Positions 10,896 through 33,183 of a stretch of DNA of 36,217 nucleotides are shown here, one piece after another. Both the position numbers and the translations under genes were made by a program. The stretch covers positions 1 through 36,217 of the IMG/VR virus record IMGVR_UViG_3300009285_000790; one strand, written 5' to 3'. Position 1 is the stretch's first letter. Each line of letters starts with the position of its first letter. Source of the stretch: a virus. The notes below the pieces were generated by a model. The model did not search any database, had not been told where the DNA came from, and saw nothing but the letters and a program-made list of their open reading frames with translations.

Positions 10896-10912
10896 AACAG
10901 AATAAAAAAAGA

Positions 10913-10938
10913 GAGGGCAGGGAATCAACCCTGCCCTC
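10913..10938. terminator. Bidirectional intrinsic terminator
   Basis: GAGGGCAGGG (10913-10922) and CCCTGCCCTC (10929-10938) form a perfect 10-bp stem with a 6-nt loop. Rightward it is followed by ATCTTTT; leftward by a run of seven T (the AAAAAAA at 10904-10910). It lies exactly where the rightward and leftward modules converge. Confidence 0.9.
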
Positions 10939-10961
10939 AATCTTTTAAGCCCCTGAATAGG

Positions 10962-18973: not shown

Positions 18974-19602
18974 CTTACCTCCTTCCAAAAGGCTACATAT
19001 TTCTCTATATCAAGAAGCAGGCGTTCCATAAATGCCTGATACCTTGCTTCTTTTCGTGCATCATCTTTGGGGGCGTCACCGGGATTTGTCCTGATAGTCT
19101 CATATCGTTTCATAAGCCTATCGTGGTTCACTCTGATTTCGGCTTCTATCTGGCACCGAATGTCTAATGGTATCTTGTCCCATAATGGAGAGTCCGGTCT
19201 GTTCACTGCCGGAAGTTCCCAACCCCTCAACAGCATCTGGCCCACGAACCAGTCCATGAATGTCTTGTAGAGCGAGTCAAAGCTGTGCTTCATAATAAAG
19301 TAGTTATAGAATTTTACCAAAATATTGAATAGCCACCTGAATATCGGGGAATAGGGCTGGCAATTAAAGTGCCTGAAGAAGTCATCCCGGATATCAAGCA
19401 GAAGACGGGAGTTATGTTCAAAGACATTATCCTTCGTAGGCTCCGGCATTTTCTTTATTGACCGGTATATCCTGATTAGCTCTAGCAAATGCCAGAAACG
19501 AAGCCTGTGTTCACCGGACAGACGTATGAGCACTTTGGCGGGGTTTTGCACGTTCTCAACCAGGTAGTTCTGCCATTCGGTTGAGCAGTAAATTGACCTC
19601 AT
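18970..19602 (-). CDS. Late helical protein, paralogue B
   Basis: 210 residues from ATG 19602, which overlaps the stop of its paralogue (ATGA). The C-terminal half shares the pattern WF-G-x-M-L-x-R-G-x-x-x-P-x-x-NRP-x-S-x-LW, GD-A/S-P, and a final helix LLLDIEKYVAFWKE with the gene upstream. Helical throughout, with no signal peptide. No database family recognised. Tandem placement in the late operon suggests both are assembly or virion proteins. Confidence 0.6.
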   Translation of the reverse strand: MRSIYCSTEWQNYLVENVQNPAKVLIRLSGEHRLRFWHLLELIRIYRSIKKMPEPTKDNVFEHNSRLLLDIRDDFFRHFNCQPYSPIFRWLFNILVKFYNYFIMKHSFDSLYKTFMDWFVGQMLLRGWELPAVNRPDSPLWDKIPLDIRCQIEAEIRVNHDRLMKRYETIRTNPGDAPKDDARKEARYQAFMERLLLDIEKYVAFWKEVR

Positions 19603-20201
19603 TCCCACGCCTTTACTGCCCTTTCAAAGTCAGTTAGTATCCTGTTTATAAACTGCTCAAACCGGCTGGCTTTATGCTGTCTGGCTTCAGGACTGTCACC
19701 CAACTTTTCCTCAATCACCTTGAGCCTGTCCTGCAAGATATTATACGAGTTTTTAATTGAAGCTGAAAGACTTTCCCTCGTTTCAGGCTTGATAGTGTGC
19801 CATAACTGGGAAGACGGCCGGTTGTGTCCAGGGAACTGGAAACCCCTGCGCAGCATCTCCCCTAGAAACCAATATGCTAAACCTTTATAGAATTGGTCGT
19901 AGTCAATTTTGGAAGCGCAGAAGTTGATAACAGGGTCAAGCACATTCTCATAGCTCGCAAGGAACCCGAAGGACAGATGCTTTTTAGCATCTTCCCAGAT
20001 GTCAAGCAGTATTGCAGTATTGGGGTCGGATACCTTCCCCCTCTCAAGTTTGGGAAGTTCCTGTATCTCTTTCAGCAGGGTAATCAAGACCTTGGCATCA
20101 TCCTCTGAAAGCTTTCCCAACCCTATTTTCCTTAGAACAAACTTCAGGGGCTCTTGTATGCCTATCATTTTCTTTACCCAACCACCTCCGTAGAAGCCCA
20201 T
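19599..20201 (-). CDS. Late helical protein, paralogue A
   Basis: 200 residues, ATG 20201 after AAGGAGAA. Similar over the second half to paralogue B (see that entry): FYKGLAYWFLGEMLRRGFQF, HNRPSSQLWHTI, GDSPEARQHKASRFEQF and a C-terminal ILTDFERAVKAWE helix. The N-terminal 60 residues differ between the two. The duplication is old, as identity is low. Position between the cement-region genes and the connector genes suggests a structural or assembly role. Confidence 0.6.
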   Translation of the reverse strand: MGFYGGGWVKKMIGIQEPLKFVLRKIGLGKLSEDDAKVLITLLKEIQELPKLERGKVSDPNTAILLDIWEDAKKHLSFGFLASYENVLDPVINFCASKIDYDQFYKGLAYWFLGEMLRRGFQFPGHNRPSSQLWHTIKPETRESLSASIKNSYNILQDRLKVIEEKLGDSPEARQHKASRFEQFINRILTDFERAVKAWE

Positions 20202-20220
20202 TATGATATTCTCCTTAGAA

Positions 20221-20248
20221 AGTGGGGGCAGATTAATCTGCCCCCACT
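20221..20248. repeat. 28-bp perfect palindrome (downstream copy)
   Basis: AGTGGGGGCAGATT (20221-20234) is followed directly by its complement AATCTGCCCCCACT (20235-20248). It lies between paralogue A and the gene at 20255. In leftward RNA it would make a very stable hairpin followed by TTCTAAGG, a weak terminator signal at most. It shares the core GATTAATC and the G5/C5 arms with the palindrome at 20847-20874. Confidence 0.85.
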
Positions 20249-20254
20249 ACCACA

Positions 20255-20821
20255 CTAGGTTGCCGAGGTCAGCGGCACTTTGAACTGAATATCAATGGTG
20301 AAACTAACATCGTCCGTAACATCGTCAAAGGTTACATTGATATAGTCTCCGGCGGAGAGGGCATACGGGGTTGTCAAGCTATTAACATCAGACCCGTTCA
20401 GGTTATCAGCACAGGAGTCAATAACATCTGTGCCACTCCCATCAGTCGCCCCATCAACAATGTCTATCCCCAGACTTGTCCCCAATGCGGCATTGGTGAA
20501 GTAGACAACCCTGACAATAGTTCCCGCACTCCATAGCTTTGTGAGCTTAACAGTCTCGTTGTCAAAGTCATTCGTGTTTCCCGTTAAGATGATATGCTCA
20601 ATGGTATAGACTTCAGAGTTGAGCATCGCTTTCGTGACAACGCTGCTTGCAATCTTACCTGCCGCAATATTGCCGCTGGTATCTGTGAGCGGGTAGGCCC
20701 GGAAGTTGGAGCCGTCAAAGTCAACGTATGCATCCTCATCCGTGCCGAAATAGAGCTTGATAGAGTCCAGGAATGTCTGCTGGGACTTAAAAATTCCCTT
20801 CCATTTAGTGAATACTGCCAT
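20255..20821 (-). CDS. Virion structural protein of unknown family
   Basis: 188 residues, ATG 20821 after AAAGGAGG. N-terminus MAVFTKWKGIFKSQQTFLDS, then beta-rich sequence with many Asp, Ser and Thr (DEDAYVDFDGSNF, VTFDDVTDDVSFTIDIQF). Closely follows the cement-protein gene. Composition and place fit a head decoration or fibre protein. It is bracketed by twin 28-bp palindromes. Confidence 0.6.
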   Translation of the reverse strand: MAVFTKWKGIFKSQQTFLDSIKLYFGTDEDAYVDFDGSNFRAYPLTDTSGNIAAGKIASSVVTKAMLNSEVYTIEHIILTGNTNDFDNETVKLTKLWSAGTIVRVVYFTNAALGTSLGIDIVDGATDGSGTDVIDSCADNLNGSDVNSLTTPYALSAGDYINVTFDDVTDDVSFTIDIQFKVPLTSAT

Positions 20822-20846
20822 GACAAAAACCTCCTTTAGTTCTTGA

Positions 20847-20874
20847 CAGGGGGAGAGATTAATCTCTCCCCCTG
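20847..20874. repeat. 28-bp perfect palindrome (upstream copy)
   Basis: CAGGGGGAGAGATT (20847-20860) is followed directly by AATCTCTCCCCCTG (20861-20874), a perfect inverted repeat with no spacer. It sits between the cement-protein gene and the 20255-20821 gene. In leftward RNA no U-tract follows, so it is not a classical terminator. An mRNA-stabilising or processing hairpin is plausible. Confidence 0.85.
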
Positions 20875-20895
20875 ACATGGCTTATTTTATTTTAC

Positions 20896-21321
20896 TTACG
20901 GGTTCAACGGTGACTGTAATGCCACAAATGCGCTTACAGTTCCTGCTGTGGTGGTAGCAGCGCCAATGGTATACTTGAGGCCGAGATACTGCTGCGTGAT
21001 GATGCCAGCGGGGAGTGGGATGACAAGTATCTTGCCAACACCTATTTGGGTATCATCATAGGCAAAGGCTTTTGTGCTTAGAATAACTACCGAGCTGCCA
21101 TCAAGGGTAGCATCTTCCTCGTCAATCACTTCAAACTTGACAGTAGCGGAGCCCGCAGACGTGAAGGCCGCATCTATGCAGATTACCACGTAGAGTGGAG
21201 TGCCGGAGCCGATGTCCCCCACTACGCCGCTCAGATTGATAGCATTGGTTGAGTAGTAGCTACCAGCGGTCTGGCTCAAGTCCTGGCTATCGCTGAGTCT
21301 CAAATCTTTATCAACGTACAT
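20896..21321 (-). CDS. Bbp16-like capsid cement protein
   Basis: 141 residues, with LRLSDSQDLSQTAGSYYSTNAI near the start, VVGDIGSGTPLYVVICIDAAF, AGSATVKFEV and the C-terminal YLGLKYTIGAATTTAGTVSAF. This order matches the Bbp16 family of trimeric jelly-roll cement proteins of short-tailed phages such as BPP-1. The gene directly follows the major capsid gene, as expected. It should clip onto the outer capsid at the threefold axes (family knowledge). Confidence 0.75.
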   Translation of the reverse strand: MYVDKDLRLSDSQDLSQTAGSYYSTNAINLSGVVGDIGSGTPLYVVICIDAAFTSAGSATVKFEVIDEEDATLDGSSVVILSTKAFAYDDTQIGVGKILVIPLPAGIITQQYLGLKYTIGAATTTAGTVSAFVALQSPLNP

Positions 21322-21349
21322 TTTATCCTCCTTATCCTTTATTTTTACC

Positions 21350-22351
21350 TTAGCTTACCGTTGCTTCCGCCACCGTGATGTTATCGCAGACCCGGATTGG
21401 TGCGTCAAGGAAACTGACAATCGGCTTACCGGCCGGGGAATCAATCGTCAGGTTGACGTTGCTCTTATTCTGCGCCTGTTTGTGCAGGAACTTGGCGACC
21501 GTCTTGTTGCAGTAGATAAAGGTTTTTGCCATATTCCCCAAGTCAACTGACGGGCGGGCATAGTAAGCATCGGTCATCTTGTCCAGAAGGTCAGCGCCGG
21601 AAGCCGCATCGGCAGTCAGGTCGGAGTTGTCAATATTGCAGATGCGGATAGCGTAGCGATAGTCCAGCAGGGCAAGGCCGAGTTTCCACTGGAACTTGGT
21701 TACAAAGGCAGTGTAGAGCAGTCCGGCCGAGTCGGTAACGAGTTGCTTACCCATGTCTTCAGAGGTCAGTCCAGCTGTAGTGCCTTTCGGGTAAATCAGG
21801 GAAACTGTTTTAGGCCCCCAAGTGATAATCCAGACGGAGGTATTGTCAGAATCGGAGCCTCCGCCCGAAATTATCTGGCTGGCATAATCCCCCGTAGTGG
21901 AGTTGTAGCGTGGGGAAAGCCCCTGTATCTGTTCCGGGTCGGTTCCCTGATTGCCATAGAATATTGCCGTAGCTGCGGTGCTGTTAAGCCCCATGACGAA
22001 GGCATCATCTTCCGATGCCCTGAAAGCAGCTTCGTTCCCGCCGAGTGCGGCAACGTCAACGTCAACCTTGCTGTAGGCTTCAAGAATACCACAGACATCA
22101 TCCCTCTGCACGGTGGTGCTTTTCTCTGGTGAGACACCGTAGTTCAGAAGCCTCCATGAACCGGTGGGTTGAGTCGCCCTCTGGGTGCTGCGGTGTCCGG
22201 TGGGCAGGTTTCCCTCCAGAACATTGGCATCGGCGAGAATGGGGTTAGAGGCTGCCAATACCTCAATTACCTGGTCAATTCCGCCGCCGGGCTTCTCACG
22301 TTTCGCATAGTCAAGTAAAGTCAAATAGGTAGAACCTATTGCAGTAGCCAT
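21350..22351 (-). CDS. Major capsid protein
   Basis: 333 residues, size and pattern of the HK97-fold capsid of BPP-1/epsilon15-like podoviruses: IDQVIEVLAASNPILADANVLEGNLPTGH, WRLLNYGV, EAYSKVDVDVAALGGNEAAFRASEDDAFVMG and FYGNQGTDPEQIQGLSPRY, which are the blocks I associate with that family. ATG 22351 follows AAAGGAGG. It lies directly after the scaffold gene and before the cement gene, a standard head-assembly order. Confidence 0.85.
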   Translation of the reverse strand: MATAIGSTYLTLLDYAKREKPGGGIDQVIEVLAASNPILADANVLEGNLPTGHRSTQRATQPTGSWRLLNYGVSPEKSTTVQRDDVCGILEAYSKVDVDVAALGGNEAAFRASEDDAFVMGLNSTAATAIFYGNQGTDPEQIQGLSPRYNSTTGDYASQIISGGGSDSDNTSVWIITWGPKTVSLIYPKGTTAGLTSEDMGKQLVTDSAGLLYTAFVTKFQWKLGLALLDYRYAIRICNIDNSDLTADAASGADLLDKMTDAYYARPSVDLGNMAKTFIYCNKTVAKFLHKQAQNKSNVNLTIDSPAGKPIVSFLDAPIRVCDNITVAEATVS

Positions 22352-22373: not shown

Positions 22374-23051
22374 TTATTTATACATAGTTGGATAGCGTGC
22401 CTTGAGACCATCTTCATCAGTCCCGCCCCCGATTGTCCTGCCAGAGTCACCCTGCGGGATTTTCTTTTTATCCCCTTCGGGCTGACCGGCCAACGTTTCC
22501 GCCATCTCGGATATTTGCTCATTGGTAGTAAGCCCTAATTTCTGGACTTTCTCCTTGAGCTTACCGATGTCAACGTGGTGCTCTACGGCTGCGGAGACTA
22601 TCGCCATTTCGGTCTTAGCCTCTTTAGCCGCAGTAAGTTCGGCAGCGTTCTCGTTGGCCTTCCTGTCAACTTCTCGCTCTTTGGCTAATATAGCAGCCTC
22701 TTTTTCTCTGAGGGCCTTCTGCTTCTGGTAGAGCTTCAGCGCATCCGGGGAGCCTTTGGCATCCTCTTCGTCAGCCTCGTCAATCCTTCGCTGGATTTCG
22801 CTCATCCTGTTTCTAGTCTCGGTTAGTTCCGAATCCAGTTTGGCTTGCGAGGTTTTGTAAGACTCCGCTTCGGCCCTTGCAGCCTTTAGCTCCCGGCCAG
22901 CTTTAGCCCTTTCGTCAGAGATTAGTTTCTGCACCTGCTCCCTGGTAAGAGTTTCGGGTATGTCCTGTGAAGTCCCCTCAGTTCCCTGAGAGGTCTGCCC
23001 AACAGTTCCCTGCTGAGGTTCGCCCTGCTTCGTTCCCTTTAGGTCGTCCAT
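22374..23051 (-). CDS. Scaffold-like protein
   Basis: 225 residues from ATG 23051 (MDDLKGTKQGEPQQG), with GGAGG upstream. Gln/Gly/Thr-rich N-terminus, then a long charged coiled coil (about 55-150: KLISDERAKAGRELKAARAEA, LREKEAAILAKEREVDRKAN), then a short C-terminal tail ending LKARYPTMYK. This is the composition of phage scaffolding proteins, and it sits immediately upstream of the capsid gene. The long in-frame extension to 23162 would run into the giant gene and is not needed. Confidence 0.75.
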   Translation of the reverse strand: MDDLKGTKQGEPQQGTVGQTSQGTEGTSQDIPETLTREQVQKLISDERAKAGRELKAARAEAESYKTSQAKLDSELTETRNRMSEIQRRIDEADEEDAKGSPDALKLYQKQKALREKEAAILAKEREVDRKANENAAELTAAKEAKTEMAIVSAAVEHHVDIGKLKEKVQKLGLTTNEQISEMAETLAGQPEGDKKKIPQGDSGRTIGGGTDEDGLKARYPTMYK

Positions 23052-23067: not shown

Positions 23068-26000
23068 CTATTTCGGTTTCTGTATTCCTTTTTCTGCTCC
23101 CCTAGCTTCTTGTTCGGCACGTTCCTTTGGGGTAAGTGTAGTGCGCCTGCGCTTCTCTGCAATGGGGGTAAACCCCTTCACATCCGCCAACCACTTATCA
23201 AGGTCTTTGTTATCCCACCGGAAGTCGTCTTTTGCTACGCTGTCAAGGGAGAGATACGCAACATATTTTGCCCAAACTTCACGGGTGGGAACATTGGAGA
23301 AGTCCCTTTCCTTTAGCCCAAAGTGGTCAAGGTAAATGTCCGCATAGAAAGCGGGGTGCTCCTGAAGATACCAGTCATCCTCATACCAGATTTCACCTTC
23401 AGGCCAATCGGCAGGCGTTCCCTCTCTAATCAGCATTATCCAGTCAGCATAGCGGTTGACGAAGTTATCCTGCACAAAGGATTTGTAACCCTCCATCATC
23501 ACCAAATCACGCTCGGTTTTATCAGGCTTCTCAAGCAGGTCATCATACTTTTCAGACGGCACTTTATCAGGAACTTGAACCCCCATATCTTCAGCCAGCT
23601 TGGGGTTCTCTTTCAGCATCCGCTCTCGCCGGTATCCCGTAACCGGCAGTTCCCAATATTCTACGAATGGCTCTACGAGCTCATCGGCAAAGCCCTTTTG
23701 ATATGCCTCTCGCCTGCGCCTGTCTTTGCGGTAATCCTCATTGGCTTCAAGGTAATCAGTCCTTGAGGTTGTCGGCAGGGCGTTGTATTCAGTGTCCTGC
23801 TCCGCCCACTTAACATCAATTCTCAAGGCGGGGACATTCCACTTTAAGCCATCATCAGTAAGTAGTTCATTGTCTAGTGCCCACCTGTAAACTTCTGGGT
23901 TATCAGTAAGCCAAACCTTTTCCTCGGCATTAAAGCCAGTAACTCTGTCGGCTATCCGCCCATGCTCTACCCATAACTCAGCCACGTTGTCATCAGCCTT
24001 GTTCTGATATGCCTCAATGCGGCGGATGTCAGCAGCGAACTCAGCATTGCCTATTCTGAATTGCCTCTTATCTTCAACAAGCTTATATTCGTCCCAGGTC
24101 TCTCGGTTCTTTACAAGAAGTTCCAATGCTTGCCTCGGAATATCTATCGGGTTGCGTCCCAAAAACTCCAACAAGCCGTTATCATCCAGTAGAAGTAATT
24201 GAACCTCCCAACTATTAGCAGAGCGTTCTTGAAGTAAATCAAGATAACTAAAGTAATTATCTATTGAGGCTTCAGGCGGTAATGTCTGTGGGGGGAGACC
24301 ATCATCGGGGATGTCAAGTTCTTCAACCAATCGCTTAAATTCATTATATGCTTCTTTGGTAAGTATCTTAGCTTGTCCCCAGATAGCGAGTAGAGCGTTC
24401 TCTTTTGGGTTAGACACAAGCCAGTCCCTTTGCGGGTTGAGAGATAGTTCAGGATTGTCCTCCACAAACTGCTTCTTCTGTTCATCATCAAGGCGGTTAT
24501 ATTCTCGGAGTAGTTCTAGTTGCCTGCGTGAGAGAGTATCAAAGGTCTCATTCTTGGCAATGCCATCTTTCCAAGATTGATAGTATTGCTCAAAAGTAAC
24601 CCCTTCCCTCAAGTCAGGCTTTATCTCGTATATTTTCTTATTCGGCATATGAGCCATTGTATTTTCTACCTCTTTAACCTGAAGATAAGAAGTAGCGCGT
24701 GAGTCTATATCAGTTAGCTGTGCCAATTCATCAGGTTTTATCGCCTCAAGGATATTAGCTAATTTACCGTGCAGAGTTCTGGTAGTGTAAATGTCCGGAT
24801 TCTCCAAAGACAACAACGGCACATCATCAATCAGTTCCCCCAACCTATTGACTTCGGCGTTGATAGCATCTTGCAATACCATCGGCTCTTTACCGAGCAG
24901 AAGGTCAAGCGCTTTCTGCGCCGTTTCGGTTTTGAGAATATCAATCTCATCAATAAGCCGACGCTTCTCATCGGGACTCATATTTTTGTCCTTAAATATC
25001 TCATCCTGCTTTTTGCTAAGTTCGCTCATGTCTCTGGCGACTCTGCGAAGAAAACGAGCGGAGGCTGAGTAGAACACGCCCTCCTTTTCAGGACCATCAG
25101 GGAACTGGTAAAAGAACAGGAGTTCGGGATGCTTCGCTTTGTAATCCTCAAACTTCTGTTCCTCATTGAGCTTGAGCATTTCCTTTAGATATTGTTCGCC
25201 CTGCTCATATTTTTCAAGAGTATTGTAAAAAGTTTCAATCGTCTGCCCTGATGAGCCGTAGGGGTTGCGGACTACAAAGGCTTTAGTTACCGGCAAATCA
25301 GCCAATGTCGGAGATGGTTGCGGTATGTCAGGACTGATACCAGTTCTCTTGAGAATAATATCCAGACTATCTATCAAATAACTGCCAAGCCCAGCAGTAT
25401 AGCCGCTTAAAAGATTGTCTAACTTTGCTGGCGATAACTGCAACAGTTCACCTAGTTTCTTTGATACCTCCGAAGTATAGCGGGTATATTGAAGTTCGGG
25501 GGGCATTTTCCCACGACTCGCCGGGACAATAGGCCCCCCCCTAAAGAAACTATAGTTTGTCATCCATTCAATTATAGGCTCTGCTATTGTTGGAATGTAG
25601 CCGGGATTGCCAGCTTCGGCTAGATTCAGAAGCGCATCCTTAAAAAGTTCCGGGTCTTTATTATCAAGCCACTCCATGAATCGCTCCGGCAGTGAGCCGA
25701 AGATAATACCTAGCTCAAACGGCTTGGGTATGCGGTAGATATTGTCCGGTGTCAGGATAATCCAGAATAAGTCTTTCTGCCATTGAGGGATTTCTTTCCA
25801 CCTGTCATCATCACGGTTGGCTAGATAAAGCAGGATTGAAGGTAGAGTAATACCCATAAATACTTTGGCTGAGGTTCTTCCCGGATGCTCCTTGAATGAA
25901 CTTAACATCCGCCCCCAGCCACGAATATTAGCGTTCCAGAAAGCTATCATAGTATTGATGGCTTTAGCAGTAGTACCCATTTGAGAGAAGTCAAGAGTTA

Positions 26001-29000
26001 CAGCCCGTGCAGAATAACCCGCCTCTAATGGAGTAGCCCCCCTACGGATACCAGCTTTGAACTCACCAAGCCTTGTGCCTTTTTCGCCGAGTTCGCTGAT
26101 GATTCTCAAAAGTTCCATCGGGTGTTTCACATAAGTTAGAGCATCCCTGCCAGACATTAGTTCCTTCCATGTCTTTTGCAAGTAATCTCTATCCATTGAA
26201 ACCAGCATAGAGTGTTCTGCCCCTGATTGCCTGAATAAATGGTAATCCGCATCTTTAGATATAATACTAGCCAACCCCCTCAGGAAATCTATACCAGGAA
26301 TGAAGCCATAATTTGAGTAGGCGAAAGCTGTCATCTGGTCTCTGGCAGGGTTTCTCACCATGAAGTCGGGGCTTAATGTAGCACCAGCACGAAGCCACCT
26401 GGCGGGGGCGCCGAGTATTCTGCCGAGCATACCGATTGATTCCCTGTCAAGGTGAAGCAGCGCTTCCCTTAAATCAGCATCAACCTTGAAATACTTTTTC
26501 TTACCATCAATCAGGACTGTAACCTCATCGCCTTTGGTGAAGAATGAGGGGCGGAATATGTCTATCACTGCTTCCGCATCGGCATCGGTCATCCCCTCAA
26601 TCTCAACCCCAAGTTCTTTTGCAGTTATGCCAGCCACTCTTGCTATCGGGGTTTTCACCCGCTCAAAGACTTCAGTTACCTGCGGGAATTTGTCAGCAAG
26701 GTTCGCCAGCATAATGCCAACCTGATTGCGCTCCGCAGCATCCATCAAGACATATGTATTCTTAACGATGCTTTCAAGTGGATTGATTATCTCACGCTCG
26801 GAGCCTTTAATCTTTTTAATCGGCTGGGCTATGTTTGCCATCTTCTTGCCCATCAAGCCTTTTGCTTGAAGTTCATTGAACACACGATAGAATGGCACGT
26901 AGCTACCATACTTGCGAAGTTTAGTAAGCATATCCTCGCTGATTAGCCCCATCTCACGGCTATAGACAAGCAGTCTGTCCTGATACTGATATATTCTATC
27001 AGCAAGTCCGGGGAAGTTAGAGTATTTAGCTTCAAGGGCAGCGAGAGCAGCGGCAGATTCAGCCTGGCTGATACCAGTCTTAATATCACGCATGGATAAT
27101 TCAAAAGCTCGTTTAGCGACAAGGTAAGTTGAGAAATCCCGCCATACTTCGGGGTCTTTAGCTTCCTTAAGGATATTCTCAAGGGACTCGCCAGTGAAAT
27201 TAGGCTTAGCTTTCCCCTTTTCTACTTTCCAAAACTGCTTGCCGAATGTGCCAGTCTCAAGGAATGTGTTAGTTTTGCCGGTGATACCCCTCTGAAGCCT
27301 TGCTAGCAAGTAGGGATTTTCATCAATGGATAATTCAACGCCTTGCTTTTTAAGTTGGTCAGTTAGCTTCTTAATGGCGAACAGGTCATCAACCATCTTG
27401 ACATTGAACTTATGCCAACCACGTCTTATCTTGTCAGTGAAGCCTTCTTGCTCGGGCTCAAACTGTATTCTGTCATGGACTAGCCTTACAGCATCCCCCT
27501 GTGGAGGCGGGACTGCGGGTTGCTCTGGCACAGTAGGAATTTTACCAATTGCTTCATTGGGGGGTTGCAGCCCAAGTTCAGGCATACTAGGTTCGGGGGT
27601 GGGAAGTTTTTCAATGTTATATCGCCCAATCTGTGATTTTTCAACAGAAGTTCGGCTACCATCAGGCCACTCAACAAGAAACGCAGGTTCCCCTGTTCGA
27701 ACCATTGTAGTCTCATTGACTATCTTCCCCATAGGCTGACCAGGAACAGGCGCTGTAACAGCCGTCTCACGGGCTACGAGAGGCTTCTCGGCCATGATGC
27801 CCGCCGCCTCTACCTCATCAAACACCTTGTCAGTGATATTATCTTTAATGTCTTCGTAGACAGGGTTGTCACTCGCCTCTTGTTTCAGTGACTGTTTTAT
27901 CCTGTTGACAGATGATACGCCTATCTGCCCGACTCCACCGAGTATAGTCGTCAACAGGAATGTCTGCGGGGCAATCTCCTTGAAAGCCTCTACCCAACTT
28001 ATTTTGCCTTCACGCAGCCCGGCCTGAACTTCTATATCAGATTGCCCCTTCTGGGTTATCGTTTCAGTCAAAAACTCCTCTCCGTATAGAGAGGCAAGTT
28101 TAGCTATTATTCTGACGGCTATTGATTTCCCTACCATTCTTCCTAGCGGGGCAGTCAGTATCTTGGCGAAAGCCAGATTGCTGATAGCCTCCGGCACGGC
28201 CTCCCACAGGCCATACTTAATCGCCAGGTTAGAAAAGTCCTGCTTCAACTGCCCTTCTTCCTGAAGGGTAATTTCTCTCCCCAGTGTAGCCTTCATTTCC
28301 TCATTCTTGGCTTCAAGGTAAATCTGCATTATCTGATAGCTGCTCATATTGAAAGCGACGGCGCCGGAAGCTGCCGTGCCAGCAGTCCAAGCTGCTATTC
28401 TGGATAACGGTGTTGGTTCTGGTATTAAAGCGATAGGGACGCCGACAGCTAAACCTGCACCCATAGAAGTCAAGGAGAAAGACATGGATTGGGGCAAAGT
28501 GGCCAGGTCACCCAGGGGAATAGGCAGGCGGATACCAGAATATTTTTCGGTAACATCATTGGCAAATGCGTTTATATCCTCATTGGCTTCGCTGATTAGA
28601 TTGTCAGCCCAATCTTTATTTACGGCACTTGCCCCCCAGTACCCCTGGGTAGCGCTAAGAATAGATGCGGCTAACTGCCTGGGGAGCTTGGTTAATGACT
28701 CCCCGAATATCTTGAATACATGCCAGTAATTTCTGCCAGTTTCAGTAGTTAATCGCCATTGATTAAGTTCTCCCTCATAACCCTTGGGATACCTTTTGTC
28801 AAGTTCAGATTTGGTTATGACTTCGCCTGTTTTGACATTTTCCCATTCCGGCTCTGGTTGCAATACTGTCTCCGCACCAACTGCCTGCGCCTCTGCGAAG
28901 AACTCCTGCACGGTTGCTTCGGAAGCCCCCAGCGCCTTCAGCAGGTTCTCCGTTTCCGATGTCCTGCCTCTTTGCTGGAGCATGGTTACAAAGTCGGATT

Positions 29001-29664
29001 GGAATTTATCATCGGTTTCAATATTGGTAAGCCACGTATCAACAATGCCTTCGCCAAGCTGTTCATACTCCGGGAAAACATCAAAGAAAGCCCGATTGAG
29101 ATTAGCCCTGCGTTCCTCAAGTGGCGCAAAGTATTCCTGCACCTGGAGAACAAAATCTTCTATAGGGATATTCGCATACTGCGCCCTGATGTCCTGGGGA
29201 AGTTGAGGCAAGATGGTTTGTTCAAATTCTCTCAGGTCAGTCTGTCTCTTTTGCTCCAATTCCTCTGGCGTAAACAGTTCATTGGCGGGAGACTTCAGGA
29301 ACCCCTCATCAGTAACCTGCCACCCTTCGGTAGTCATTGTCTCCGGTAGTTCAACCCTTGTAGGGGGGATTTTCTCGGCAGGCGGGATTTCAGAGAACCG
29401 ATAGCCTTCATCGCCAAGCTCTACACGTAGCTGCGAGCCTTCGCCGATTCCCATCTCAAGCCCGGCATCTCGCAGAAAGTCGGGGGTAAAGAAGACCTCG
29501 CCAAGTTCGGTTAGCCGCCTCTGCACTCCGGGCATCTCGGTCAGCTTGCGGAACTGCATAGTCAGCTCATCTTCAGTTTCTATCTCTGGTTCTTGAGGCA
29601 CACGGATAAGTTTAGGCTTCCGTATCCCCCTCTCTGGAGTGAAACGCTCGATGCTGGTTGGCAT
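23068..29664 (-). CDS. Giant (2198-residue) virion or ejection protein with LPD38-like region
   Basis: The largest gene in the window. Residues about 390-600 hold hydrophobic Gly/Ala-rich stretches (GAGLAVGVPIALIP, FLLTTILGGVGQIGV) like membrane-active regions of ejection proteins. Residues about 740-1260 (SPDFMVRNPARDQMTAFAYS near 1103, SARAVTLDF and IAFWNANIRGWGRM near 1243) resemble large polyvalent protein-associated domain 38. The last 700 residues are charged and contain a recurring hydrophobic-x-x-NP/HP motif (near 1735, 1750, 1917, 2016, 2100). Place between portal and scaffold fits an internal protein ejected with DNA. No peptidoglycan hydrolase motif is evident. Confidence 0.65.
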   Translation of the reverse strand: MPTSIERFTPERGIRKPKLIRVPQEPEIETEDELTMQFRKLTEMPGVQRRLTELGEVFFTPDFLRDAGLEMGIGEGSQLRVELGDEGYRFSEIPPAEKIPPTRVELPETMTTEGWQVTDEGFLKSPANELFTPEELEQKRQTDLREFEQTILPQLPQDIRAQYANIPIEDFVLQVQEYFAPLEERRANLNRAFFDVFPEYEQLGEGIVDTWLTNIETDDKFQSDFVTMLQQRGRTSETENLLKALGASEATVQEFFAEAQAVGAETVLQPEPEWENVKTGEVITKSELDKRYPKGYEGELNQWRLTTETGRNYWHVFKIFGESLTKLPRQLAASILSATQGYWGASAVNKDWADNLISEANEDINAFANDVTEKYSGIRLPIPLGDLATLPQSMSFSLTSMGAGLAVGVPIALIPEPTPLSRIAAWTAGTAASGAVAFNMSSYQIMQIYLEAKNEEMKATLGREITLQEEGQLKQDFSNLAIKYGLWEAVPEAISNLAFAKILTAPLGRMVGKSIAVRIIAKLASLYGEEFLTETITQKGQSDIEVQAGLREGKISWVEAFKEIAPQTFLLTTILGGVGQIGVSSVNRIKQSLKQEASDNPVYEDIKDNITDKVFDEVEAAGIMAEKPLVARETAVTAPVPGQPMGKIVNETTMVRTGEPAFLVEWPDGSRTSVEKSQIGRYNIEKLPTPEPSMPELGLQPPNEAIGKIPTVPEQPAVPPPQGDAVRLVHDRIQFEPEQEGFTDKIRRGWHKFNVKMVDDLFAIKKLTDQLKKQGVELSIDENPYLLARLQRGITGKTNTFLETGTFGKQFWKVEKGKAKPNFTGESLENILKEAKDPEVWRDFSTYLVAKRAFELSMRDIKTGISQAESAAALAALEAKYSNFPGLADRIYQYQDRLLVYSREMGLISEDMLTKLRKYGSYVPFYRVFNELQAKGLMGKKMANIAQPIKKIKGSEREIINPLESIVKNTYVLMDAAERNQVGIMLANLADKFPQVTEVFERVKTPIARVAGITAKELGVEIEGMTDADAEAVIDIFRPSFFTKGDEVTVLIDGKKKYFKVDADLREALLHLDRESIGMLGRILGAPARWLRAGATLSPDFMVRNPARDQMTAFAYSNYGFIPGIDFLRGLASIISKDADYHLFRQSGAEHSMLVSMDRDYLQKTWKELMSGRDALTYVKHPMELLRIISELGEKGTRLGEFKAGIRRGATPLEAGYSARAVTLDFSQMGTTAKAINTMIAFWNANIRGWGRMLSSFKEHPGRTSAKVFMGITLPSILLYLANRDDDRWKEIPQWQKDLFWIILTPDNIYRIPKPFELGIIFGSLPERFMEWLDNKDPELFKDALLNLAEAGNPGYIPTIAEPIIEWMTNYSFFRGGPIVPASRGKMPPELQYTRYTSEVSKKLGELLQLSPAKLDNLLSGYTAGLGSYLIDSLDIILKRTGISPDIPQPSPTLADLPVTKAFVVRNPYGSSGQTIETFYNTLEKYEQGEQYLKEMLKLNEEQKFEDYKAKHPELLFFYQFPDGPEKEGVFYSASARFLRRVARDMSELSKKQDEIFKDKNMSPDEKRRLIDEIDILKTETAQKALDLLLGKEPMVLQDAINAEVNRLGELIDDVPLLSLENPDIYTTRTLHGKLANILEAIKPDELAQLTDIDSRATSYLQVKEVENTMAHMPNKKIYEIKPDLREGVTFEQYYQSWKDGIAKNETFDTLSRRQLELLREYNRLDDEQKKQFVEDNPELSLNPQRDWLVSNPKENALLAIWGQAKILTKEAYNEFKRLVEELDIPDDGLPPQTLPPEASIDNYFSYLDLLQERSANSWEVQLLLLDDNGLLEFLGRNPIDIPRQALELLVKNRETWDEYKLVEDKRQFRIGNAEFAADIRRIEAYQNKADDNVAELWVEHGRIADRVTGFNAEEKVWLTDNPEVYRWALDNELLTDDGLKWNVPALRIDVKWAEQDTEYNALPTTSRTDYLEANEDYRKDRRRREAYQKGFADELVEPFVEYWELPVTGYRRERMLKENPKLAEDMGVQVPDKVPSEKYDDLLEKPDKTERDLVMMEGYKSFVQDNFVNRYADWIMLIREGTPADWPEGEIWYEDDWYLQEHPAFYADIYLDHFGLKERDFSNVPTREVWAKYVAYLSLDSVAKDDFRWDNKDLDKWLADVKGFTPIAEKRRRTTLTPKERAEQEARGAEKGIQKPK

Positions 29665-29995: not shown

Positions 29996-31753
29996 TTATT
30001 CCCCTCCGGTTGCCGTCTGTCTGCGAACCACAGACTCACGGCTTTCACTTCTTTCCTCTAACTCATCGGGGGTAACTTCTTCTTCACGCTCCGATTGGCT
30101 ACCACCGCCACCAGCCATAAGGGGAACCATCGGCTTTGATGAACTACCCTCTGTTTGCTTGCCTTCCATATTCAATCCTGTAAGCTGCCCCGCAGCCCTT
30201 TGCCGCAGGATAGTCTCTAGCTGTTGGAGTGTAAGTTCAGACTTCAAATAGAACTTCTCCTGTTCTTTCTTATCATCCAGCGAGTCTCCCCTGTCCCTGT
30301 AAGCGTAAACCTGGTCGTAAAGGACATTCCCCGCATCCATTCTGTCCGCCAGCTCCTGTTTTTCCATCGCTAACTCACCGGCTACATCCTGGACTTTCAG
30401 GGTATTGGTCAGGATACTCCGCCATGAAAGCCCCAAAGCCCTCTGCTGCTGGGCAACGGCGGTGTTGGATATATCCTGCTCCGGCGAGGTCGGCGTGAAG
30501 TCGTAGAAGATAGCGAACTTCTTGTCAATGTCTTTAGTATCATATTCCCTTTCCAACCCCGGCTCCCCAAGTTCAGCTTTAATTCCACCCTTAACATATT
30601 GCCGTAACAGCATCTTGGCCGTCTGGCGGTAGTAGAGAGCCATATCGTGCAGTCTCATCATTACTATGGCATCCCTTGTTCCCATCATCTTTGAAATTGC
30701 TACCGCTGACAAAGGCATGGTGAGCGTGCCGTATTCCAGGTTGGAGAAGGTAGCCCTCTGAAGCGCCGATAGTAGAAGATACTGCAAACTCCGCGAGGCG
30801 TTCTTAATATCATTTATAGGCAGGGCCTTATAACCACCGCCCTTTTCTACCGGTATGACTTTTCGTGTGCCCCTTATCGGCTGCTCCGGCTTCTTCGCCT
30901 GTTCCCCCATTTCGCTATGATATTCCCACCCGCCAAGGAAGGACATCATATCAAGAGTCGTGAGGATAGAGGCGTGGCGGTTTATTTCAGGATAGAGGTC
31001 TCTGACAACAGCATAGATGCTCTCGCCACGATACTTGAAAAAGTCGTCATCCATGAGCATGGGGCCAGTTGCACTTTCCACAACCACATAGGGCACATAG
31101 CCGAGAGTGTTTTCCGCCTCCCATATTTTCTTGCCAGCCACGTAAGTCTCCAGCACTTCCGTATCAGCAAACGGCTGAACGGGAATATTCTTTCCGGCTG
31201 GTATCTTCCCCGCAGCACTGGGGTACTCGCTTTCAATCATGGCTTTGGTGCGGAAGAACTTTGGGGAAGCCCAAAGCAGCCCGTCAGCACCGAACTCGTA
31301 GACGGTATGCCTCGCATCGCAGGGGATAATGTCCGGCACATAAGTCCCGCCAACTTCCCTGAGTAAGTTTTGGGTTATAATCGTTCCCCTGATACAGTCC
31401 TGTTCAATGATAAATGGTTTTAGTATTCTTGACCCTTTAGCCATAAGACGGACATCAACACTGGTAAACAGGTCATCAATGCAGCCTTCAATCAGGGCGG
31501 TTTCCCTGTCAGATAGCCCTTTACCTACGACTCTTGACTGCATGTGAGATGAGTTAATAATGGCAAACACCTTCTCCGCAAACATCCTGGGTTCCGGCAT
31601 GGTAACACTGATGGCATCAGGAATACTCTTTGAGTTCTCATCCTTCAGGGTGTATTTTTCCAGGATATAAAGCGCCCTGTCATTCGTCTGGCGGGTGAAG
31701 CGGCCACTGAATATTTCTTCCATCTCTTTGATTTTAGCTAAATTATCTGCCAT
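29996..31753 (-). CDS. Portal protein
   Basis: 585 residues, the size of a dodecameric phage portal. It follows terL and precedes internal and scaffold genes. N-terminal half is mixed (CDARHTVYEFGADGLLWAS, TYVAGKKIWEAENTLGYVPYVV), the central region has long helices (ASRSLQYLLLSALQRA, RLHDMALYYRQTAKMLLRQY, as in portal stem and crown), and the C-terminal 100 residues are charged and probably disordered (EEEVTPDELEERSESRES). The assignment rests mainly on size, operon place and helical pattern; no enzyme motif is present. Confidence 0.8.
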   Translation of the reverse strand: MADNLAKIKEMEEIFSGRFTRQTNDRALYILEKYTLKDENSKSIPDAISVTMPEPRMFAEKVFAIINSSHMQSRVVGKGLSDRETALIEGCIDDLFTSVDVRLMAKGSRILKPFIIEQDCIRGTIITQNLLREVGGTYVPDIIPCDARHTVYEFGADGLLWASPKFFRTKAMIESEYPSAAGKIPAGKNIPVQPFADTEVLETYVAGKKIWEAENTLGYVPYVVVESATGPMLMDDDFFKYRGESIYAVVRDLYPEINRHASILTTLDMMSFLGGWEYHSEMGEQAKKPEQPIRGTRKVIPVEKGGGYKALPINDIKNASRSLQYLLLSALQRATFSNLEYGTLTMPLSAVAISKMMGTRDAIVMMRLHDMALYYRQTAKMLLRQYVKGGIKAELGEPGLEREYDTKDIDKKFAIFYDFTPTSPEQDISNTAVAQQQRALGLSWRSILTNTLKVQDVAGELAMEKQELADRMDAGNVLYDQVYAYRDRGDSLDDKKEQEKFYLKSELTLQQLETILRQRAAGQLTGLNMEGKQTEGSSSKPMVPLMAGGGGSQSEREEEVTPDELEERSESRESVVRRQTATGGE

Positions 31754-31764
31754 ATCTTAGTCCT

Positions 31765-33183
31765 CTATAAGTCCCAGACTTGCCCGGCCCCCGTCCTCAA
31801 TATCTGCTTGGGTAACATTACCGTCGCACCATACCTCATGCAAGCAGACGCCAGGTGATACTTAGCCTCATCCTTTATCTTGTTCAGAGGCTTTTTTGTC
31901 TGCGGGTCTATCTCCCACATCATGTCATGTATCTGCCCCAGGAGTTGGTGCAAGTCCTCAAAGACATAGAACTGGTTTTGTTCCACAATAGCCAGAAGCC
32001 TGTCTATCTGCAACTTGACCCTCGTTATCTCCGGGGCCATGATATTCCAGCCAAGCCTCCGGTATAACTGCCTCGTTTGTTCCTCGGTAGTTACGTTCCC
32101 ACCTACCGCCCTCTCAAGCCTCAGTCTGAGAGTCCCGTCATCCTTCCTCCCCATGATGTCCTTGTAGTTCTCAATATGCCTTTCCGCCGATGAACCTGAC
32201 CCAGGCACATACTCGGCAAAGGCTACATAATCACCCACCCTTAAATAGTTCGGGGCTTGCGGGGGCAGGGGCAACCTTACCTGTGCCACGAACAGCGCCG
32301 CATGATTGGCCTCTCCGAAGTCGTGAAACGTAAGCACCGGCCAGTTATCGGGTATGGGAAACCTTTTAATCCTGGATAAAGTATCATCAAACTTCCCGTA
32401 AACCAGCCAGCTTTGCTCAATCTCATCATCCTGGGCTAAAATCTCACGGCGGTAGGAGTCATCCGACATGTCCCCACTGGTAGTCAGTTCCTTCAACGCT
32501 TCCTGCGATAGATACGGATTATCATAACTAGTGAAATGGAATGTCTGCCACCTCCCCGTTTTATCCAAAAGAGCTTTGTTGAATAACTTGGTAGCATGCC
32601 GCGGGTCTTTGGCCTTGCTGATACCCTCTGACTTCAAGGACGGCGGCGTGAAGATAAATATCGCCGTGCCGTTAGTGTCTAGTAACATCGGCTGAACTAC
32701 GTCCTGCCACGCATCCTCATTCCATAACTGGTACTCTTCCATCGTAACAATGTCACCCCAGTCCCCCCTCATCGTAGATGCGTTCCATGCAGTCTTCGCC
32801 TTTATCCTTATCTCTGTCCGGGGTATCTCTATAATATGCTCCGTCTCATCCTTCTTAAATGCTCCAGCCTCTATCCCAGGACTTAGGGCATTGACTACCT
32901 CAAACCAGAACTTCCCCACCTGCTCCGTAGTCGGCGCCGCATATAATGACCGCTTGGGCTTCGTCCTTCCTGTATTGTCACATAATACACACCCCCCTCC
33001 CATACAAGCCCAGCATTGACCAAGAAATGACATCACATGCTTTATAGCTACCCCATACGTCTTCCCCCCCCTCCGCCCAGCCTTTACCGCTTGCCTTAAG
33101 GCTACACTCCGAACAAACTCATCCTGCTTGCCTTCGTATGGCTTCGGTATCTTGATTTTTACCTTAGTTTCTTCTGCAATCAA
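31765..33183 (-). CDS. terL: Terminase large subunit with a zinc-knuckle insert
   Basis: Packaging ATPase and nuclease, 472 residues. Walker A is AGRRGGKT (35-42); a strand ending GDIVTMEEYQLW (Walker B aspartate with catalytic Glu near 149-150) follows; the nuclease domain begins near LTFHDFGEANHAA (metal Asp288). Between Walker A and the adenine region is CWACMGGGCVLC (Cys57/60/65/68), a probable zinc knuckle that is not part of the usual terminase core. The start is TTG 33183; a stop lies four codons upstream and no ATG is available. The ribosome site is weak. Confidence 0.9.
   Translation of the reverse strand: MIAEETKVKIKIPKPYEGKQDEFVRSVALRQAVKAGRRGGKTYGVAIKHVMSFLGQCWACMGGGCVLCDNTGRTKPKRSLYAAPTTEQVGKFWFEVVNALSPGIEAGAFKKDETEHIIEIPRTEIRIKAKTAWNASTMRGDWGDIVTMEEYQLWNEDAWQDVVQPMLLDTNGTAIFIFTPPSLKSEGISKAKDPRHATKLFNKALLDKTGRWQTFHFTSYDNPYLSQEALKELTTSGDMSDDSYRREILAQDDEIEQSWLVYGKFDDTLSRIKRFPIPDNWPVLTFHDFGEANHAALFVAQVRLPLPPQAPNYLRVGDYVAFAEYVPGSGSSAERHIENYKDIMGRKDDGTLRLRLERAVGGNVTTEEQTRQLYRRLGWNIMAPEITRVKLQIDRLLAIVEQNQFYVFEDLHQLLGQIHDMMWEIDPQTKKPLNKIKDEAKYHLASACMRYGATVMLPKQILRTGAGQVWDL

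Follow-up and report, generated by a model that had tools for sequence, protein, structure and literature searches.

An exchangeable late gene and the covarying three-way RNA junction over its start codon in uncultured phages of one clade

What do two perfect palindromes do on either side of a single gene in a phage late operon? The window analysed here, a viral IMG/VR record of 36,217 bases, contains the perfect 28-bp palindromes AGTGGGGGCAGATTAATCTGCCCCCACT at 20221-20248 and CAGGGGGAGAGATTAATCTCTCCCCCTG at 20847-20874. A sequence-only reading had reported that they flank the 20255-20821 gene, and this proved exact: no other perfect palindrome in the window exceeds 16 bp, and about 0.0001 of their length would be expected by simple arithmetic (36217/4^14). 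Both are real and far beyond chance. The core GATTAATC, which is common to both, was unremarkable when taken alone (2 observed versus 0.94 expected from shuffles).

The palindromes in the late operon

The flanked gene, hereafter gene 3, belongs to a minus-strand late operon in which the terminase gene is followed by a portal-position gene, the gene for a 2198-aa protein, gene 22374-23048, the capsid and cement genes, gene 3 and gene 19599-20201 (Table 1). Each palindrome lies in an intergenic gap, and a Shine-Dalgarno sequence and then a start codon follow it. The list of open reading frames extends gene 3 to 20878; the Shine-Dalgarno fits the ATG at 20819-20821. RNA folds of both palindromes gave z values of -4.4 to -6.5, and none of the 12051 windows of 66 nt on the coding strand was more stable than the 20847-20874 element.

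The capsid protein is E15/BPP-1-like, and 178 residues of the large terminase were 58.6% identical to that of the Methanosarcina virus MetMV, which could point to an anaerobic and possibly archaeal host. BPP-1 carries nothing but short genes at the position of the 2198-aa protein, of which diverged copies occur in relatives of the window.

Table 1. Genes of the late operon and parts of the two RNA elements, in window coordinates
Feature	Position	Strand	Remarks
Large terminase	31765-33183	-	
Portal-position gene	29996-31753	-	No family match
2198-aa protein	23068-29664	-	Between the portal-position gene and the 22374-23048 and capsid genes
Gene 22374-23048	22374-23048	-	Directly before the capsid gene in the operon
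Major capsid protein	21350-22351	-	Pfam GP7, E 1.3e-116; 45.8% to BPP-1 Bbp17
Cement-type, Bbp16-like protein (upstream gene)	20896-21321	-	Pfam Bbp16, E 5.3e-19
Whole three-way junction before gene 3	20817-20881	-	Model match 20819-20881; MFE fold -37.5 kcal/mol
P1 5′ arm, GCCATG	20876-20881	-	MFE pairing with CATGGC; covaries across relatives
P2, 12-bp RNA hairpin with UUAA loop	20847-20874	-	Palindrome of the sequence-only reading
P3 hairpin, CAAGAAC-(UAAAGGAG)-GUUUUUG	20824-20845	-	MFE fold, arm-swap test, covariation
Shine-Dalgarno, AGGAGG	20830-20835	-	Mostly within the P3 loop
P1 3′ arm, CATGGC	20817-20822	-	Contains the start codon, 20819-20821
Gene 3, 188 aa	20255-20821	-	Without a Pfam or PHROG family; N-terminal ~40-75 aa related to L135, L137 and L138
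Second, weaker element before gene 19599-20201	20202-20256	-	P2 is palindrome 20221-20248
Candidate P1 of second element, TGTGGT with ATCATA	20249-20254 with 20202-20207	-	
Gene after gene 3	19599-20201	-	Preceded by palindrome 20221-20248

A conserved three-way junction over the start codon

The upstream palindrome is the P2 arm of a three-way junction, a compact RNA of about 65 nt, that lies over the start codon of gene 3. P1 is formed by the segment just 5′ of P2 paired with the start-codon region, and P3 is a weak hairpin; in the window, the unpaired probability of the start codon was 0.00. The layout recurs across loci 3′ of the cement gene as a G/C hairpin, a weak hairpin at AAAGGAG and the start codon, and folding showed that the outer helix in relatives joins the start-codon region to the segment before the G/C hairpin. 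The arms of P1 vary, being GCCATG/CATGGC in the window, TCGCTA/TAGCGA in L123, AACATA/TATGTT in L124 and GACAT/ATGTC in L165, while in L154 CAC pairs with a GTG start codon. The stability of P2 ranged from about -16 to -26 kcal/mol across relatives, and in the 24 first-position elements a distance of 5-39 nt separated the cement stop codon from the P2 that follows it.

A single-sequence scan with gene 3 returned zero relatives. Relatives were collected through the capsid, which gave 21 loci by scan and, by alignment search, 80 kept of 158 confirmed in viral contigs and 8 in genomes. A covariance model, R1, was made from four loci with the structure written by hand and was run against 60 sources (519,142 bases). 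It returned 42 matches at E<=10, the four trained loci included; at the junction of the cement gene and gene 3 it found 17 untrained loci at E<=0.004, namely the window (34.1 bits, E 6.3e-7) and 16 others. Also among the matches were the second palindrome, at E 0.0035, and some that were weaker or antisense. A second model, R2, was built from the 22-row alignment A8, which contains the window (52.1 bits), and detected three loci outside its training (L123, 7e-7; L137, 4e-6; L126, 8e-6).

Clade loci were defined as those with a capsid at least 56% identical to that of the window and with DNA holding the junction, which left 27 non-redundant loci (the window, L123-L128, L131-L137, L139, L140, L142, L146, L149, L154, L157, L162, L165, L166, L169, L171 and L214). 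Identical or near-identical contigs (L129, L130, L138, L141, L147, L148 and L155, as well as re-fetched stretches) were merged on visual inspection. L122, L152, L159, L164 and L170, which end before the junction, were left out. R2 matched the junction of the cement gene and gene 3 at E<=1e-5 in 24 of the 27, 21 of these being in its training, so the element occupies a fixed position before the start codon. L139 had a match in the right place with a three-way fold (E 0.061), and L162 and L171 had no R2 match at this junction.

Among 59 distant or control loci (capsids about 39-47% identical, plus 8 named phages and 2 others) there was no R2 match at E<1e-3, the best being E 0.0012, and the 8 named E15/BPP-1-like phages gave none at E<=1. 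At the junction of the cement gene and gene 3, L192 of this set had a hairpin (E 0.025); in several other loci of the set one lay before other genes, without visible P1. Second elements in L157, L123, L139 and L162 likewise consisted of a hairpin and a ribosome site without convincing P1. G/C hairpins directly before other late-gene ribosome sites, again with no visible P1, were seen in near and distant capsid relatives at L162:3656-3713, L188:2525-2576, L194:5791-5847 and L199:5728-5787. Hairpins before late-gene starts may be a wider trait of this virus group. The window has a further strong hairpin at 10905-10946, GAGGGCAGGG AATCAA CCCTGCCCTC, with a weak R2 match (E 0.07). A search of window 19500-21500 against Rfam 15 gave 7 matches at E<=10, the best of 20.1 bits and none near the gathering score.

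Short motifs were also scanned for. At least 120 viral stretches matched GGGG..GATTAATC..CCCC, and the GATTAATC core was dropped as a family mark because this number is estimated to be near chance for the size of the collection and because the relatives of the window use other loops. All 10 clade stretches among the 34 that matched CCCC..ACTAAAGGAGGT carry the element; the remaining 24 were without it by fold and R2 (best E 0.006, poor stems). An 18-mer of P3 was found in 9 stretches, of which two, L222 and L223, lie outside the clade and have the same sequence. In this different phage the P3 sequence GTAACTAAAGGAGGTTAC surrounds a Shine-Dalgarno before another gene, with no G/C hairpin (L222:2242-2296, L223:11511-11565).

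The secondary structure was supported by covariation beyond controls. In A8, 95.8% of cells were paired, 20 of the 21 pairs had changes on both sides, and covariation was 0.651 compared with 0.240 (sd 0.019) in shuffled and at most 0.149 in slid alignments. The MAFFT alignments A3 and A4, which misplace stems of unequal length, were excluded from counting, as was A5 from the model. Because A8 was fitted to the model and leans towards pairing, we used an arm-swap test independent of it, in which the 10 nt before P2 and the 12 nt after P3 were paired either natively or after swapping between elements, with the boundaries of P2 and P3 set by hand. Native P1 arms paired at -5.06 kcal/mol and swapped arms at -2.83 kcal/mol (0/20000 permutations), and the outcome was also 0/20000 when limited to 20 non-redundant elements; for P3 the same test gave z -9.4. 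In a shuffle test per element, P1 reached p<0.05 in 12 of 25 elements (combined p 5e-14). P1 was weak or absent in some, with none in L169 and about -0.4 kcal/mol in L133 and L166. The same fitted alignment A8 contained 31 G-U cells compared with 3 A-C cells; it is therefore the coding-strand RNA that is conserved.

Linkage of the element to gene 3

Gene 3 falls into kinds that are unrelated to one another or related only distantly; complete frames span 125-573 aa once the short ones in L124, L126, L127 and L171 are set apart. The kinds include one beginning MLWRG..KFK, one with MA...W...LYFG, to which the window belongs, and others. Within the MLWRG..KFK kind, L123 had a weak beta-helix match below the Pfam cut-off, and L123 and L134 weakly matched PHROG tail families. 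The structure model of L134 gene 3 was predicted to be beta-rich (pLDDT 66, pTM 0.70); its matches to beta-helix structures were weak (best E 0.0099; E 0.04 for the tailspike HK620) and may serve as a lead only. A model of the window's own gene 3 was useless (pLDDT 31). The gene behind the element is 104 aa long in L124 (6517-6831) and 313 aa long in its close relative L149 (5550-6491), a gap that possibly reflects a frame break or an assembly error.

A partial Mantel test across 23 loci tied the similarity of elements to that of the gene 3 N-terminus (r 0.42, p 0.0004) and not to that of the capsid (0.16, p 0.14). With the 8-nt P1 arm alone the values were 0.30 (p 0.0004) and 0.17 (p 0.05), respectively. 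Part of the correlation with gene 3 is expected, because P1 must match the first codons of the gene. Since the element follows the gene 3 N-terminus rather than the capsid, RNA and gene look like one exchangeable module.

A hairpin below the 5% level of controls was present upstream of gene 3 in 22 of 23 loci and downstream of it in 11 of 23. When whole loci were scanned for 17 places, the first element of the window among them, the element ranked as most stable in 9, and in the remaining 8 it was equalled by one to six distinct sites. In L165 a long, perfect 18-bp hairpin lies within 95 nt after the gene 3 stop (6471), with a best local fold of -31.0 kcal/mol.

The second palindrome of the window comes directly after the gene 3 stop. 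R1, which was untrained on it, scored this second element at 22.3 bits (E 0.0035 in 519 kb), and R2, which is not independent here, at 40.6 bits. The three-way fold was the MFE structure in one context and was absent in others, and the P1 shuffle test gave p 0.12. The second palindrome is probably the same kind of hairpin placed before the following gene, with a weaker P1 or none.

A proposed gate for translation initiation

A structure that is conserved, belongs to the coding strand and is linked to the downstream gene could act in several ways. We hold it to be reasonably probable that the palindromes are RNA features and that the upstream one, as P2, is part of a cis-acting junction that would form the translation-initiation gate of the next gene. 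Start codons of 24 elements were less accessible than 126 other start sites in the same loci (0.33 versus 0.49, p 0.005) and their Shine-Dalgarnos were more accessible (0.58 versus 0.43, p 0.0005), a modest difference; a strongly hidden start together with a strongly open Shine-Dalgarno occurred in 5/24 elements and 4/126 controls. In many elements the cement stop is, by geometry, near enough to P2 for a terminating ribosome to disturb P1. These accessibilities and the distance between stop and P2, together with the lack of a terminator and of a conserved DNA palindrome, therefore favour a translational gate.

From this pattern we infer a translational role, a folding order and a coupling as follows. 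The junction would form the translation-initiation region of gene 3 on a polycistronic late mRNA. P2 should fold first and brace the weak helices P1 and P3; P3 would display the Shine-Dalgarno in its loop, where a 30S subunit could dock; and P1 would hold the start codon or its neighbours, so that committing to initiation would require the opening of P1. Ribosomes terminating on the cement gene may help to open it. Such a gate would set the translation rate of the variable virion-type gene apart from those of the upstream capsid and cement genes, and the junction probably sets the amount of gene 3 protein made. In a bolder version, which we regard as doubtful, junction and virion gene would make up a portable RNA gate that moves between phages as one module, P1 would evolve to pair with the first codons of each new gene, and whatever gene came to stand behind the capsid-cement pair would be made at a preset dose, perhaps sensed by a capsid or cement protein.

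P2 might instead mainly protect or define mRNA ends, by blocking exonucleases or by being cut in processing. The capsid-cement part would then outlive the rest, and P1 and P3 would do no more than prevent misfolding of the ribosome site. The sequence-only reading had named such processing or stabilising hairpins. The great stability of P2, its constant position just after the cement stop and the similar hairpins after gene 3 in the 11 of 23 loci mentioned above would suit this role. We nevertheless consider it unlikely, as it leaves unexplained the covariation of P1 with the start-codon region, the retention of the Shine-Dalgarno in the P3 loop and the tracking of the downstream gene rather than the capsid.

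Less likely again is an aptamer-like operator at which a phage protein, for example the cement protein, or a host protein would bind and repress or activate gene 3. Three-way junction operators over ribosome sites do exist: the uS15 operators on the rpsO mRNA of B. stearothermophilus and T. thermophilus are described as three helices meeting at or near the ribosome site and thought to block initiation when stabilised (PMC10931766). They share with our element a three-helix junction at the ribosome site, but theirs is in a host rpsO mRNA, the gene of their own ligand, with rRNA mimicry and a known protein ligand, whereas ours is in a phage late operon, with the Shine-Dalgarno in a hairpin loop and the start codon in the closing helix. 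Phage T4 also offers a parallel in its gene 43 hairpin operator and gene 32 pseudoknot, mRNA structures just 5′ of the ribosome site or overlapping it that gp43 and gp32 bind near their start sites and that control translation (PMC3014915). Unlike the junction, these are a single hairpin or a pseudoknot in autoregulated replication genes, with no start-codon junction. In the aligned elements, however, neither the P2 loop nor the sequences of P1 and P2 were conserved, and there was no conserved unpaired motif except the Shine-Dalgarno loop.

We know of no phage late operon with a three-way junction whose closing helix takes in the start codon and whose Shine-Dalgarno lies in a hairpin loop. A search of the open-access literature found no description of the element, which is not proof of its being unpublished. 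Kinds that work similarly are known, namely the uS15 operators, the T4 operators and coupling by unfolding. The hairpin of T4 gene 25 sits between the Shine-Dalgarno and the start codon, unlike the hairpin here. To go by reference titles in PMC3014915, that intercistronic mRNA structure was reported to enhance initiation at a phage gene junction. In coupling by RNA unfolding, which PMC12548453 describes for phage f1 VII/IX and MS2 coat/lysis, ribosomes translating the upstream gene open a structure that covers the next ribosome site. In those cases the upstream gene reaches the hairpin or its vicinity, whereas here it stops short of P2 by the distance given above and coupling is proposed from geometry.

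A role of the palindromes as DNA, either as protein binding sites or as scars of a mobile cassette, is very improbable. The exchange of gene 3 between phages and the core common to both palindromes would agree with it, but among 25 equivalent elements only the two of the window are DNA palindromes (0/23 others), loops differ while stems compensate, and G-U exceeds A-C on the coding strand. A hairpin whose loop happens to be self-complementary can thus show up in DNA as a perfect palindrome. The sequence-only reading had offered cassette-insertion footprints as one possibility; gene 3 can in fact be exchanged, and its RNA moves along with it, but the hairpins, whose sequences differ and covary, are not insertion repeats. 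Its other suggestion, hairpins tied to expression of the flanked gene, holds as RNA structure and is sharpened by the R1 and R2 matches, the arm-swap test and the covariation to a junction at the start codon. It had staked both on the palindromes being present in relatives, where they are absent as DNA and present in nearly all as an RNA hairpin. Intrinsic terminators or attenuators between the late genes, which the G/C-rich intergenic hairpins might suggest, are the least probable of all, as there is no U-run (1-4 T in the 8 nt after P2 in 25 elements) and a terminator scan listed neither palindrome.

A phage has to produce its virion parts in set ratios from a single late transcript, and sequence seldom reveals how the dose of one particular gene is adjusted. 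In this clade of uncultured phages, an exchangeable late gene has its start codon covered by a covarying RNA. If the proposed translational gate is true, the junction would be a naturally occurring device for setting expression, one that keeps its tuning when another gene takes the place behind it.
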